Program-made: the position numbers and the translations under genes
Shown: positions 603-10,651 of the stretch, in pieces
Numbering within the stretch: position 1 is the stretch's first letter
Layout: each line of letters starts with the position of its first letter
Notes under the pieces: generated by a model
The model's database searches: none
What the model was told of the DNA's origin: nothing
Seen by the model: the letters and a program-made list of their open reading frames with translations, nothing else
DNA from: a virus
DNA: 30,188 nt
IMG/VR virus record: IMGVR_UViG_3300042558_000542
Span: 1-30,188 of that record
Strand: one strand, 5' to 3'

Positions 603-1037
603 ATGCAAAACGAAATTTTGAACAATCAGCCGCAAACAGTTACCGAACAAAAAGTTATTATTCTTGATGGCAAATTGACAGGCAAAAAATTATCACAATT
701 ATTAGCCGCAAAAAGTCAATCTAACAAAGATTATAAAAGCAGCGAAGGTAGTATATCAAAAATGCTTAAAAATGTCGCTGAATATGGCAGCCAATACCTG
801 GTAGAATTGAATAAAAAACATAGCACTAACATTAACGCTGAATTTATCTTATCAAATGTCAATCAAGGAAAAGAAGGTATTGAGTTATTTTTGAAATTCG
901 CCACTGATAAGGATATACAACAGGCTGCAAAAAGAGGGGAAAAACTAGGTAAAAATTCACCCGTCTTTACTTTTTGGGCAGCCTTATCATTCATAGGTAG
1001 ATATTGCGAAGCAAACAAAGTTAAGCAAAGTAAATAA
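603..1037 (+). CDS. Hypothetical protein, 144 aa
   Basis: Not recognised. The product is lysine-rich, soluble and mostly helical in composition, with no membrane segment or cysteine motif. The N-terminal 25 residues look disordered (Q/N/T-rich). The middle (res. 25-60) is basic, and the C-terminal half contains a hydrophobic FTFWAALSFIGRYCEA helix near the end. The ATG follows an A-rich leader and the promoter at 529-561. It is the only gene between two long noncoding stretches, so it may be expressed separately from the early run that starts at 1777. A small DNA-binding or regulatory protein is possible, but no known fold can be assigned. Confidence 0.7.
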   Translation: MQNEILNNQPQTVTEQKVIILDGKLTGKKLSQLLAAKSQSNKDYKSSEGSISKMLKNVAEYGSQYLVELNKKHSTNINAEFILSNVNQGKEGIELFLKFATDKDIQQAAKRGEKLGKNSPVFTFWAALSFIGRYCEANKVKQSK

Positions 1038-1053
1038 ACTAACGCACGTTAGT
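1038..1053. repeat. Palindrome just after the 603 gene
   Basis: ACTAACG (1038-1044) and CGTTAGT (1047-1053) form a perfect 7-bp inverted repeat with a 2-nt centre, starting directly after the stop codon. It suits a dimeric-protein operator better than an RNA hairpin, because the loop is too short for a full stem. Confidence 0.5.
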
Positions 1054-1056
1054 AAA

Positions 1057-1101
1057 GGGGAGTCCTGATTCAATCAGCGGATGTTTGCGGCATTGCTCCC
1101 C
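1057..1101 (+). ncRNA. Candidate three-way-junction RNA fold
   Basis: An outer stem GGGGAG (1057-1062) / CTCCCC (1096-1101) encloses a hairpin CTGATT (1065-1070) / AATCAG (1072-1077) and a weaker GATG/CATT hairpin at about 1080-1094. No U tract follows at once, so it is not a standard terminator. It may be a 3'-end stabiliser of the upstream mRNA or the first domain of a longer noncoding RNA. No known riboswitch class is recognised. Confidence 0.4.
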
Positions 1102-1183
1102 ACAAAGTAGGTTCACATGGTAGTATCTGCATTTTTTGACATGGCTTTATAAATATTTTCAGTTCGAAAATTTAAAGTTTGTG

Positions 1184-1198
1184 GCTTCGGTTCGAAGC
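1184..1198. repeat. Short hairpin GCTTCG/CGAAGC
   Basis: A perfect 6-bp hairpin with loop GTT. Neither strand has a T tract after it, so a terminator is unlikely. Confidence 0.4.
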
Positions 1199-1278
1199 TT
1201 AATCAAAAAAACTACAAAGGAAAGGAGCAAATTTAACTTTGTTGCCTTGAATATTTGACAAGTTTTTTATTCGCAATA

Positions 1279-1301
1279 TTATAAGTCTTATAAACTTATA
1301 A
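1279..1301. repeat. 8-bp inverted repeat with repeated CTTATAA
   Basis: TTATAAGT (1279-1286) and ACTTATAA (1294-1301) flank a 7-nt centre that is itself CTTATAA, so this heptamer occurs twice directly (1287, 1295) and once inverted. The pattern is operator-like. The AT-only composition makes chance occurrence possible. Confidence 0.4.
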
Positions 1302-1340
1302 GAGAAAAAATAATCATGAGACATTTTTATGTCATGCGTG

Positions 1341-1416
1341 GTCGGTTTATACTATTTCATTATTCAAAGTTTATTAATTTGAACAGCGTTACCGACATAA
1401 ATTCAAAAAATAGTAT
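1341..1416 (+). ncRNA. Candidate H-type pseudoknot
   Basis: GTCGGT (1341-1346) can pair with ACCGAC (1391-1396), and ATACTATTT (1349-1357) with AAATAGTAT (1408-1416). The arms occur in the order A-B-a-b, which is the topology of an H-type pseudoknot. A further hairpin, TTCAAA (1363-1368) with TTTGAA (1378-1383), sits in the long connecting loop. This is seen only as complementarity; AT-rich sequence produces such matches by chance. Confidence 0.35.
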
Positions 1417-1515
1417 GTAAGGAGTGCAAATATAGTTATTTCGATTTATCATCTAACTTCTCCCCACACACCCGAACAGGGAAGGACTGCATTAAACAGC
1501 TCCGATAATTAAGGC

Positions 1516-1572
1516 ATGAAAGTACTTTGCTACTTCGATTTATTCATTTAGTAAAGGCGTGACTACTTTCAT
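1516..1572. repeat. 9-bp inverted repeat
   Basis: ATGAAAGTA (1516-1524) and TACTTTCAT (1564-1572) are perfect complements separated by 39 nt. They lie inside the structured noncoding stretch before the 1777 gene. Confidence 0.4.
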
Positions 1573-1604
1573 TAAGGTACAAATGTCTGCAAAAAAACAA
1601 CCAA

Positions 1605-1683
1605 TATTTAAGTAATGGCAAGGGTAAAGTTTACCCTATACCTATACTCGCCATGATGTTAAACAAATGGTATTGCTTAAATA
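1605..1683 (+). ncRNA. 12-bp stem enclosing a perfect hairpin
   Basis: TATTTAAGTAAT (1605-1616) pairs with ATTGCTTAAATA (1672-1683) over 12 positions, the single non-Watson-Crick pair being U-G. Inside lie GGGTAAA/TTTACCC (1622-1636) and ATGGC (1615-1619) with GCCAT (1650-1654). This domain ends 17 nt before the tRNA-like minihelix at 1701, and the two may belong to one transcript. Confidence 0.45.
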
Positions 1684-1700
1684 TTTTTAATACTATTCAA

Positions 1701-1749
1701 GGGAAAGGGCAAGGCGCAGGGTCTAAGGGTTCGACTCCCTACTTTCCCC
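1701..1749 (+). ncRNA. tRNA-like minihelix (acceptor stem plus T arm)
   Basis: GGGAAAG (1701-1707) pairs perfectly with CTTTCCC (1741-1747), as in a 7-bp acceptor stem. Directly before the 3' strand is a T-arm-like hairpin with loop TTCGACT (1730-1736) and GGG/CCC core. Only about 18 nt separate the acceptor 5' strand from the T arm, so D and anticodon arms are absent; it cannot decode. No CCA is encoded (CCCC follows). It may be a deleted tRNA, an RNA 3' domain, or a remnant of an attachment site in a host tRNA gene. Confidence 0.5.
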
Positions 1750-1776
1750 TATTTATTCACTCTAAATTTTAAAACT

Positions 1777-3913: not shown

Positions 3914-4303
3914 ATGAATCAGACAACTATCTCCAACGACTTACTGAAAGCTATTTATGACAATGGCAACGATGCAGTAAAAGACTACGTACTTTCTGTG
4001 GCTCCCGACTTACTAGCTACATCAATTGATGGCTTCGTGCTTAACATTGACTCGGATTCACTCTCAACATTTGTTGAAACGCTTGATGTATCCGAATACA
4101 ATGATACCCAACTAATCGAGGTAATAAACAACACTGCATCTGGTGCCGAAGCAGGACATGGCTTCTATCTTCACAGACAAGGGGACAGCGTACAATGGTA
4201 CACTGCACCTACTAAAAAGGGTAAGGCTGTTCGCCTCGTGCCTGTATTTGCAGGTACTGACGCAGAACAACACCTGGTTGACCTCGGATACACAAAGCTC
4301 TAA
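3914..4303 (+). CDS. Hypothetical acidic protein, 129 aa
   Basis: An acidic soluble protein. The N-terminal half is helical with repeated D/E/N (res. 1-75). The C-terminal half has GHGFYLHRQGDSVQWY and a short KKGKAVRLV basic strand, suggesting a small alpha/beta domain. No family is recognised. The ATG follows an A-rich leader (AAAAACAAAAAA). The gene is closed by a terminator at 4317-4345, so transcription may stop here unless antitermination operates. Confidence 0.7.
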   Translation: MNQTTISNDLLKAIYDNGNDAVKDYVLSVAPDLLATSIDGFVLNIDSDSLSTFVETLDVSEYNDTQLIEVINNTASGAEAGHGFYLHRQGDSVQWYTAPTKKGKAVRLVPVFAGTDAEQHLVDLGYTKL

Positions 4304-4316
4304 TATCTTACCAATC

Positions 4317-4345
4317 AGCAGGGTAGTACATCTGCCCTGCTTTTT
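4317..4345 (+). terminator. Rho-independent terminator fused to the next leader
   Basis: AGCAGGG (4317-4323) pairs with CCCTGCT (4335-4341), followed by T to 4345. The T tract runs straight into the leader TTATTCACTTAAAAC of the 4368 gene, leaving no room for a separate promoter. Confidence 0.8.
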
Positions 4346-4367
4346 ATTCACTTAAAACAAAAATAAC

Positions 4368-4538
4368 ATGGATAAGAATAAACAGCAAGATATGCACGGC
4401 GCAATTATGAAAGCAAATGACAATATACGGTGGGAGATTGAACAAAAGATTGAACTGATAAAAATATACTTGTCTGAAGCTGGATATAGTGATGAAGATA
4501 TAAACGAATATCTAGACAATACAACATTCCATTATTAA
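4368..4538 (+). CDS. Hypothetical acidic microprotein, 56 aa
   Basis: A short, highly charged helical protein with a predicted coiled region (IRWEIEQKIELIKIYL) and an acidic C-terminus (DEDINEYLDN). The ATG at 4368 follows the recurrent leader CACTTAAAACAAAAATAAC and the stop is 19 nt before the 4558 ATG, which has the same leader. The matching leaders at both ends support this as a real gene. Function unknown. Confidence 0.6.
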   Translation: MDKNKQQDMHGAIMKANDNIRWEIEQKIELIKIYLSEAGYSDEDINEYLDNTTFHY

Positions 4539-4557: not shown

Positions 4558-6105
4558 ATGTTCACGTACAACACAAAAGACAGAATGCGTAAAGCAAATT
4601 GTTACTACTCAGTAGAACTCGAAGGCATGGAAAACGTGCACCTGAGGGGTGCTATGTTCGGCTACTACAAATCAGGTAGCGATAAAGAAAGAGATGAAAA
4701 TGATAGGTGGCCCGATGATGGTCTTATGCTAATGAAGCCTGGTAAACTGCTAAAGAAAATGGCTGAAGCAATAGAATCTGATGTAACCGACCTTGATATA
4801 GAAAATGCTGTCAATCGCCTAAAGAACATCATCTCTATCCACGGAGACGAGCATGGTGAAGGTGGCGAATTACCTATGCTATGTATAGTAAAAGGCGAAC
4901 TGATAGGTGCTTACTATCTGGAAGATAACTACCTCGAAGGAATAGGCAATCTCGGAAGTAGTTGTATGCGGTATGAAAGCTGCCTTCCTGCATTTAGAAT
5001 ATACGAGGACAATCAAGATGCTATATCAATGCTGGTACTCAAATCACACACAAACAAAGTAATTGCAAGGGCTTTACTATGGAAGCTCAATGCAGAGTAC
5101 TACATGGATACTGTTTACAGCATCAAGGACAACTACAGAGATATGCTTATTGACTATGCAAAGCGTCATGATTTCTTCTACAAGTCATATCAGTCGTGCC
5201 ATCACAATGTATTTGACAGGAAGGGGGATGAGCATATAACACCTTTCATCATCAGCGTACCCATCAACTTCGACACATCGTGGAAAGTGCCATACATGGA
5301 TACTATGTTCTTTGCTGTCAAGCGTGATGACCAATGGTATGCTACTAATTGTGCAGTTGAATCCGATACAGAAATATACAGAATGAGAAGTACTGGAGGT
5401 AGGGCTGAGACAAGATGGTACCCTGCTGAAAACTATCTGCTACACATGGAGGTATCATTCTCGCTTCTGCATAAAACATTCGTTTCTGATGCGGCTAAGA
5501 AGTGGATAGATGATAACGACATAAGAGATATACCTAACAGCGTTATGAAGGATGTCATTAAGGATGATGAAAGCGGTAACTATGACTACAAGAGATACTT
5601 CTTATTTGAAGAAGAAGATGAGGAGGAAGAAGATGAGAACAGGGTTTACTGCGAATACATAGGAGAGTACAGAGACTATGACGACTGCACTTACATAGAC
5701 AGAGGTGAGAGAAGAGATGAGTATGTGCTTAATGAAGATGTTGTTGAAGTACGTGGATACTGTTGGTGGACAGGAGATTCAGATATTGTATGGGTTGATT
5801 CTGAAGGAGAATACTACCACGTAGATGACACGTTCTACTGCGAGTATAATCAAGAACATTACCACATTGACGATGCAGTATATGTAAAAGACTATGGGGA
5901 TGTACGTAAATATGACGTAGAAGAAGTAGCTGTTAGTATTGATGGCACATGGTATAATAAAGACAACTGCGTTCAATGTGCAATCAGCGGTGTATGGATG
6001 CAAGATGGGGATGAACAAGAGCTTCCAGATGGCAGATTAGTAACGCAGGATGAGTACGACAAGTTTATGGAAGAGAATCAAGAAGAAGAAGAAGAGAGAC
6101 CTTAA
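4558..6105 (+). CDS. Large conserved phage protein with acidic repeat tail, 515 aa
   Basis: The N-terminal 230 residues carry a pattern seen in uncharacterised phage proteins: a LGSSCMRYESC motif (res. 132-142), an IARALLWK motif (169-176) and a YMDTVYS motif (182-188). After a middle region comes a strongly acidic tract (about res. 351-362), then about 125 residues of degenerate repeats of the form (G/E)-(E/T/H)-(Y/W)-x3-D-(D/N), at about 369, 417, 432 and 462, rich in Tyr, Cys and Asp. The tail ends in another poly-Glu run. No enzyme motif was identified. It is the largest gene of the first half of the early region, sits next to the peptidase gene and shares the standard leader. It might be a metal-binding or host-interaction protein; the role is unknown. 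Confidence 0.75.
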   Translation: MFTYNTKDRMRKANCYYSVELEGMENVHLRGAMFGYYKSGSDKERDENDRWPDDGLMLMKPGKLLKKMAEAIESDVTDLDIENAVNRLKNIISIHGDEHGEGGELPMLCIVKGELIGAYYLEDNYLEGIGNLGSSCMRYESCLPAFRIYEDNQDAISMLVLKSHTNKVIARALLWKLNAEYYMDTVYSIKDNYRDMLIDYAKRHDFFYKSYQSCHHNVFDRKGDEHITPFIISVPINFDTSWKVPYMDTMFFAVKRDDQWYATNCAVESDTEIYRMRSTGGRAETRWYPAENYLLHMEVSFSLLHKTFVSDAAKKWIDDNDIRDIPNSVMKDVIKDDESGNYDYKRYFLFEEEDEEEEDENRVYCEYIGEYRDYDDCTYIDRGERRDEYVLNEDVVEVRGYCWWTGDSDIVWVDSEGEYYHVDDTFYCEYNQEHYHIDDAVYVKDYGDVRKYDVEEVAVSIDGTWYNKDNCVQCAISGVWMQDGDEQELPDGRLVTQDEYDKFMEENQEEEEERP

Positions 6106-9999: not shown

Positions 10000-10524
10000 A
10001 TGAAACAGTTAATCTCAATTCAAAGCGAACTCAAAGCCCCAAAGAATCAATTCAATTCTTTTGGCAAGTATCATTACCGTAATGCAGAGGATATCCTTGA
10101 AGCATTAAAACCTATCATGTTAAAGCATGGATGTACGCTGACAATCTCTGATGAGATAAAGATGGCAGGAGATATTATGTATGTGGAATCTAAGGCTACG
10201 CTATGCCATGAAGGAGATTGCGTATCTGTAACTGCACAAGCAGGTATAGACCTTAATGCAAAAGGTATGTCGGCTGCTCAATGTTTCGGTGCGTCTGCTA
10301 GTTATGCCAGGAAGTATGCACTCGGTGGCTTGTTCTTATTAGATGACAGCAAAGATGCTGACGCTACCAATACTCATGGCAAAGACTCACAGCCTTTGCA
10401 AGATGCCTTAAATAAGCTGTCAGGTATGAATAGTAAGGCAGAAGCTATTGAGTGGGCTAAGACACTACCCGATAGCGTTAAGACACACGACTCATTCAGA
10501 CAAGCATTCAGTAAGAAGTTCTGA
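10000..10524 (+). CDS. ERF-family single-strand annealing recombinase, 174 aa
   Basis: The N-terminal 125 residues fit the ERF superfamily: an initial helix with LKAPKNQFNSFGKYHYRNAEDI (res. 12-33, the FGKY.YR..EDI pattern), a central beta sheet and the ERF signature GASASYARKYALGGLF (97-112). The C-terminal 50 residues are variable and helical, as is usual in this family. ERF proteins anneal complementary single strands during phage recombination. The RecE-like exonuclease gene lies 127 nt downstream and an SSB-like gene at 12521, making a complete exonuclease/annealing/SSB set. The leader is AACCAAACAA. Length is within the family range. Confidence 0.88.
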   Translation: MKQLISIQSELKAPKNQFNSFGKYHYRNAEDILEALKPIMLKHGCTLTISDEIKMAGDIMYVESKATLCHEGDCVSVTAQAGIDLNAKGMSAAQCFGASASYARKYALGGLFLLDDSKDADATNTHGKDSQPLQDALNKLSGMNSKAEAIEWAKTLPDSVKTHDSFRQAFSKKF

Positions 10525-10626
10525 TGATATAATGTCTAGTTTATTAGATAAAAAACTGGACATATTTATACCCGATAACGTATAAAATACCCATAACTAA
10601 CCTATATTATACCCGATAGCATATAA
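10466..10626 (+). repeat. TACCCGATA direct repeats upstream of the exonuclease gene
   Basis: Two 20-bp direct repeats, TTATACCCGATAACGTATAA (10566-10585) and TTATACCCGATAGCATATAA (10607-10626), differ at two positions and start 41 bp apart, close to four helical turns. A third shorter copy, TACCCGATAGCGTTA, lies in the end of the ERF gene (10466-10480). They suggest an operator or iteron array controlling the 10652 gene. Confidence 0.6.
10533..10562 (+). terminator. Hairpin after the ERF gene
   Basis: TGTCTAGTTT (10533-10542) pairs with AAACTGGACA (10553-10562), all ten positions pairing in RNA with one U-G wobble and a 10-nt loop. It is followed by TATTTATA, a weak U-rich tail. It may act as a weak terminator, or as a palindromic operator next to the TACCCGATA repeats. 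Confidence 0.4.
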
Positions 10627-10651
10627 TTATTATTCACTAAACCAAACCGTT

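Follow-up and report, generated by a model that had tools for sequence, protein, structure and literature searches.

Very few large structured phage RNAs are known. GOLLD and ROOL, whose functions are open, come closest to the RNA considered here, which resembles them in being several hundred nucleotides long, phage-encoded, rich in complex junctions and associated with tRNA features. GOLLD, ROOL and OLE form RNA multimers (PMC12286853). A second likeness is to the lambda N/nut system and to the boxB-boxA leaders of rrn operons, where boxA acts with NusB (PMC4807359, PMC10250234): an early operon opens with a basic protein gene next to short-loop hairpins and a boxA-like site, the hairpins preceding boxA as in rrn leaders. 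The third is to MALAT1 and MEN-beta, in which a long RNA is followed by a tRNA-like fold (mascRNA, menRNA) that is a potential RNase P substrate, and RNase P matures long RNAs at tRNA-like ends (PMC11693755). With tmRNA there is a common T-arm carrying GGTTCGAYT, a 7-bp acceptor stem and no normal anticodon arm.

The DNA analysed, called the window below, is the whole of a 30,188-base IMG/VR virus record. Its plus strand has genes for a primase-helicase, a RecE-type exonuclease and an Erf-like annealing protein, and its minus strand genes for tail proteins. Since relatives of its primase among named phages are mostly from Cellulophaga, Flavobacterium and Maribacter phages, the host of the uncultured phages bearing the RNA is probably a member of the Bacteroidota. 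A first-pass annotation of the sequence had pointed to about 740 nt of noncoding DNA between two plus-strand genes, and this is borne out: positions 1038-1776 are flanked by ORFs at 603-1037 and 1777-2088 and contain no ORF of at least 50 aa on either strand. The upstream ORF (603-1037, plus strand) encodes a small basic protein of 144 aa and pI 9.5 and is a candidate RNA-binding partner. At 554-561 on the plus strand is TACATTTG, which fits the Bacteroidota -7-type promoter consensus, TAnnTTTG, with TTTG at 529-532; a related contig, G006, has this arrangement (TTTG...TATATTTG) ahead of its homologous gene, and on sequence grounds this is likely the promoter of ORF 603-1037 together with the RNA behind it. 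Directly after the stop codon comes a palindrome, ACTAACGCACGTTAGT, at 1038-1053 (ACTAAC and GTTAGT about GCAC). It is absent from the homologs examined and so lies outside the conserved RNA, whose best supported extent in the window is about 1056-1750; the palindrome itself could be an operator or a stem specific to the window.

It is close to certain that 1038-1776 represents a conserved functional structured RNA and not chance pairing, and very probably the RNA belongs to an undescribed class of 500-850 nt, found in uncultured phages directly behind the first early gene. Folding of the single sequence lifts the whole region above chance by a modest margin (z = -2.6 relative to 20 shuffles), and its 240-nt pieces on the plus strand give z = -2.0, -0.35 and -2.45. 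The evidence that decides the matter is comparative. In a lower-resolution version of the scan made genome-wide, plus-strand positions 4158-4397 and 10398-10637 of the window gave z of -5.2 and -5.1, lower than any part of the region examined.

Seven related viral loci were reached through the primase, and blastn of the noncoding DNA against their records found matches in six, five of them with E below 1e-5: 90% identity over window positions 1590-1760 in G001 (E 8e-61), then G006 (4e-15), G005 and G003 (3-5e-9) and G002 (6e-6). The conserved core, TATACTCRCCNTGATGT, used as a query, added L031, L032/L035 and L037, and a looser core pattern gave no further homologs. Four contigs that matched a 17-base core pattern (L029, L034, L036 and L038) were discarded as unrelated on reading. 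The homolog of the downstream ORF, in L002, belongs to another unrelated phage, higher in GC, that lacks the RNA. Nine other viral contigs thus carry the RNA in the same place; G003/G005 and L032/L035 are near-identical pairs, hence eight distinct RNAs in ten contigs, the window included, all from uncultured phages (G003 corresponds to L021, and G006 to L019). In named phages, blastn with the RNAs and tblastn with two homologs of the upstream protein gave only a 24-bp match to the T-arm in two Mycobacterium phages, and scans of genome contigs for the core motif and the primase found none. Rfam returned nothing at its gathering thresholds for the window, nor up to E 10 except chance eukaryotic or sRNA matches far below cut-off, and nothing up to E 5 for four homologs; by these scans the class is absent from Rfam release 15. 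Unlike GOLLD and ROOL, to whose covariance models neither the window (to E 10) nor the four homologs (to E 5) have a match, the RNA has another architecture, with a built-in 3′ mini-tRNA instead of tRNA islands, a fixed upstream partner gene and a boxA-like site in its 5′ part.

The sequence of the RNA is largely divergent among homologs and its architecture is common to them. It sits at the head of the early operon, and a homolog of the basic protein is encoded directly before it on the same strand in 9/9 relatives searched. The window copy of this protein is the most diverged (24% identity to that of G006). The protein has no Pfam or PHROG family; a structure search with the G006 homolog gave no significant PDB match, and its predicted model, at low confidence, is all-helical. 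On the other side of the RNA no first downstream gene is common to the carriers. The region is formally the leader of the gene at 1777, and a riboswitch or translational control of that gene would be one way to account for its structure, but the lack of conservation of the first downstream gene argues against a riboswitch and Rfam has no riboswitch match, so that a cis-regulator of this kind is very improbable.

The 5′ part begins with a three-way junction, D1 (1057-1101 in the window, plus strand), closed by GGGGAG/CTCCCC and enclosing the hairpin CTGAT-TCA-ATCAG and a weak second arm. In D1 of the homologs 99% of cells are paired and 15 of 21 pairs have changed on both sides, a number that falls to at most 5 when the partner strand is slid. 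The equivalence of the window's D1 is argued by analogy, from position and topology; the covariance model R2 does not reach it. A broad D1 pattern had over 120 matches, nearly all by chance, and among those fetched R2 picked only known members. Clade I has next a hairpin, D2, with a GCAAAG-type loop. L037 carries at 5694-5747 on the plus strand, antisense to the RNA, an inverted copy of a D1 hairpin within the 3′ domain of its RNA; it is the hairpin typical of the sister phages, nearly identical to that of G006 when reversed, and L037's own D1 hairpin is different.

The twin hairpins that follow, D3, occupy 1155-1199 on the plus strand (1155-1171 and 1183-1199), with 6-bp stems and the loops AGTTC (1161-1165) and GGTTC (1189-1193). 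Most members have an A-rich bulge on the 5′ side. The two loops are equal or nearly so within one RNA and different between phages: GCGGT/GCGGT in G006 and L037, ACGGA/ACGGA in G002, CAGTG/CAGTG in L031 and L032, TAGTT/AAGTT in G003 and GCGGA/GCGGC in G001. Twin hairpins with such loops stand in the same place in G003, G006 and L032. Under the stem rules shuffled sequences are expected to yield 0.00-0.04 per RNA (0.03 for the window); four of the eight RNAs, the window among them, pass these rules, whereas in the remaining four, whose stems are shorter, the twins were recognised by visual inspection. Nine of 22 D3 pairs show compensation, against at most 2 when slid. RNAalifold on MAFFT alignments gave z = -12.0 for the 5′ half of G006, L037, G001 and G002, with 23 compensatory pairs (3.6 in column shuffles), and z = -10.9 for that of L031 and L032, with 17 (2.8). 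Because the D1 and D3 covariance models do not detect the other main clades, the 5′ parts of different clades are equated by their position, their topology and the statistics of the twin loops; the 5′ half of the window outside 1502-1576 has no alignable relative, and its twin hairpins were assigned by the shuffle test.

The elements that the first-pass annotation had listed are present, namely the palindrome, the junction-like fold, the hairpins at 1155-1171 and 1183-1199, a long stem at 1603-1616/1672-1685 and a tRNA-like end at 1701-1748. Related RNAs retain their stems through compensation, far in excess of shuffled alignments (z near -12 and -11 for the 5′ half; 15/21 pairs in the 5′ junction); the palindrome and a pseudoknot are without demonstrated conservation. 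Its central proposal, an undescribed large structured RNA, for which it did not claim a place in GOLLD or ROOL, is supported by the homologous loci, the compensatory changes and the lack of an Rfam match.

In seven of the eight RNAs a GTTCWTTGA-like site lies 186-215 nt past the stop codon (the stretch of L031 used starts about 13 nt after its stop), and in each of those seven it is the top match. In the homologs the fit is good: L031 has exactly GTTCTTTGA; G001, G002 and L037 have one mismatch. Across the genome, 9-mers one mismatch away turn up as often as chance predicts. The site in the window, ATTTTTTGA at 1131-1139 on the plus strand, has two mismatches to GTTCTTTGA and is unconvincing; TATTTGACAAG at 1252-1262, also on the plus strand, is an alternative at the usual distance from the stop codon. 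In six Bacteroidota leaders (L044 and L046-L050) GTTCTTTGA stands 138-223 nt upstream of 16S, and there it is presumably boxA. Some of the PLSDB Bacteroidota "plasmid" records, such as NZ_OY725754.1 (L048) and OY726011.1 (L049), begin or end in or near 16S, and several of them look like chromosome fragments. In several RNAs the boxA-like region could form pairs with the core loop, conserved TTTGACAT with AUGUUAAA, and may be kept for that; such pairing is plausible but is not claimed here, 8-bp matches being common in such AT-rich sequence.

With its order of basic protein gene, twin hairpins and boxA-like site, the start of the early operon looks as it would for a purely cis-acting antitermination leader of the nut or put type, with all that lies past the boxA-like site being mRNA leader that gives no separate product. 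The likeness has limits: the protein belongs to no N-like family in Pfam or PHROG and has no N homology, there are two equal-loop hairpins, preceded by a three-way junction and followed by hundreds of structured nucleotides. Since lambda nut sites are far smaller, antitermination by itself leaves the conserved core and the mini-tRNA unexplained; a nut site has no need of 29 invariant columns or of a mini-tRNA that lies hundreds of nucleotides beyond the boxA-like site, and a leader and nothing else is improbable.

The boxA-like site is also where related RNAs part company. G003 and G006 are 26-65% identical before it and 80-98% identical from it to the end, the switch falling within the site, and their upstream genes are distant like their 5′ RNA parts. 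The window and G001 have primases that are 99% identical, yet only the last part of the RNA is common to them. Judging from these alignments, phages exchange RNA halves, with one breakpoint at the boxA-like site. The twin-loop type tracks the clade of the upstream protein; this is no more than suggestive, as linked inheritance alone would give the same.

The main rival to a composite scheme is a stand-alone large ornate RNA like GOLLD, ROOL and OLE, acting as an RNA-only multimer or in an RNP, for which the boxA-like site would merely keep Rho off during synthesis and the upstream protein would be an RNP component or an unrelated neighbour. The size of 500-850 nt, the many junctions, the invariant core, the mini-tRNA end and the phage location all speak for it, and the multimers formed by the known ornate RNAs (PMC12286853) are counted in its favour. 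It is nevertheless rather unlikely: a fixed 5′ part of 200 nt travels with the protein gene and its twin loops vary with the clade of the protein, as if a protein were bound there, and no conserved self-complementary loop has been demonstrated.

The middle domain between the boxA-like site and the core comes in at least four types. That of the window (1502-1576, plus strand) is a hairpin, GAAAGTA...TACTTTC, with conserved TTCGATTTATYATT and CGTGACTA, and its alignment to G002 outscores every one of 300 shuffles. The core domain (1603-1685, plus strand), closed by 1603-1616/1672-1685, encloses hairpin A (1622-1636), and both stems recur in other homologs with different sequences. Within it 1642-1670 is near-invariant, comprising CTATACTCGCC and hairpin B, CCAT-GATGTTAAACAA-ATGG; TATACTC is invariant, and the core alignment of eight RNAs has 29 invariant columns. 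Hairpin B is paired in 100% of cells at its third position, which may be C-G, A-U or U-A, and RNAalifold on the 3′ halves gives z of about -5 against column shuffles.

At the 3′ end is a mini-tRNA without an anticodon arm (1701-1748, plus strand), formed by a 7-bp acceptor, GGGAAAG/CTTTCCC, and a T-arm, AAGGG-TTCGACT-CCCTA. A 12-bp acceptor/T minihelix (7+5 or 6+6 bp), whose two stems would stack coaxially, is present in 8/8 RNAs, also where the T-loop and D-like part differ; its junction has a mismatch in some, the window included. G002 and L037 have AACTTTGC as T-loop, not TTCGAYT, and retain the 6+6 or 7+5 bp minihelix. In the T-stem 6 cells have changed on both sides where shuffles give 2.1, but counted as pairs these changes are not unusual. 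ARAGORN and the Rfam models call no tRNA or tmRNA in the window or the homologs scanned. The tRNA association proposed in the first-pass annotation stands as regards the tRNA-like end, and not as regards neighbours: with no tRNA genes nearby by ARAGORN, the mini-tRNA is a domain inside the RNA and not part of a tRNA island. Unlike tmRNA, it has a local acceptor 5′ strand, not one at the RNA 5′ end, and no tag ORF was recognised; unlike MALAT1 and MEN-beta, the RNA is of phage origin, unrelated in sequence and lacks an anticodon arm, and its processing is predicted. On its features the mini-tRNA is likely a processing site for RNase P or RNase Z.

Phage att sites frequently match tRNA 3′ ends, and the tRNA-like end might be such a remnant of a host tRNA gene, with the remainder chance pairing of AT-rich DNA. 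This is hardly credible, as the 3′ strand finds its 7-bp acceptor partner locally, the T-stem covaries, the minihelix is retained where the T-loop is replaced, compensatory changes occur elsewhere in the RNA and the 20 window ORFs scanned include no integrase.

The conserved structure, synteny, modular exchange and motif positions, which are directly supported, are best accommodated by a two-part large phage noncoding RNA that combines Nus/boxA antitermination, a partner protein and mini-tRNA processing, a composite to which we would give an even chance; its boxA/partner-protein part and its mini-tRNA processing part each stand at about evens. The RNA, transcribed from the early promoter, would present in its first 200 nt or so the three-way junction, a hairpin, the twin identical-loop hairpins and the boxA-like site; the twin loops would recruit the upstream-encoded protein and the boxA-like site the host NusB-S10 complex, and RNA polymerase would thereby read through the long untranslated stretch into the early operon, as in rrn leaders and at lambda nut sites. 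The downstream part, about 300-650 nt, ends in the conserved core and mini-tRNA, where a cut by RNase P (possibly RNase Z) would release the structured RNA, as a stable product, from the early transcript. As a working guess, the freed RNA may have a structural or RNP role of the kind suspected for GOLLD, ROOL and OLE. More tentatively, and with the balance somewhat against it, the class may be a phage ribonucleoprotein in which a modular RNA with a dedicated protein is transcribed with the help of an rrn-like boxA, is matured by host tRNA enzymes at the mini-tRNA and has its halves swapped at the boxA-like site.

The RNA adds an independent class to the large structured RNAs of phages, and one with experimental handles in its dedicated neighbouring protein, twin hairpins resembling a protein site, boxA-like site and tRNA-like processing end. 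The open-access literature searched yielded no described early-operon antitermination system for phages of Bacteroidota, and the RNA suggests that such a route may operate in phages that probably infect these bacteria.
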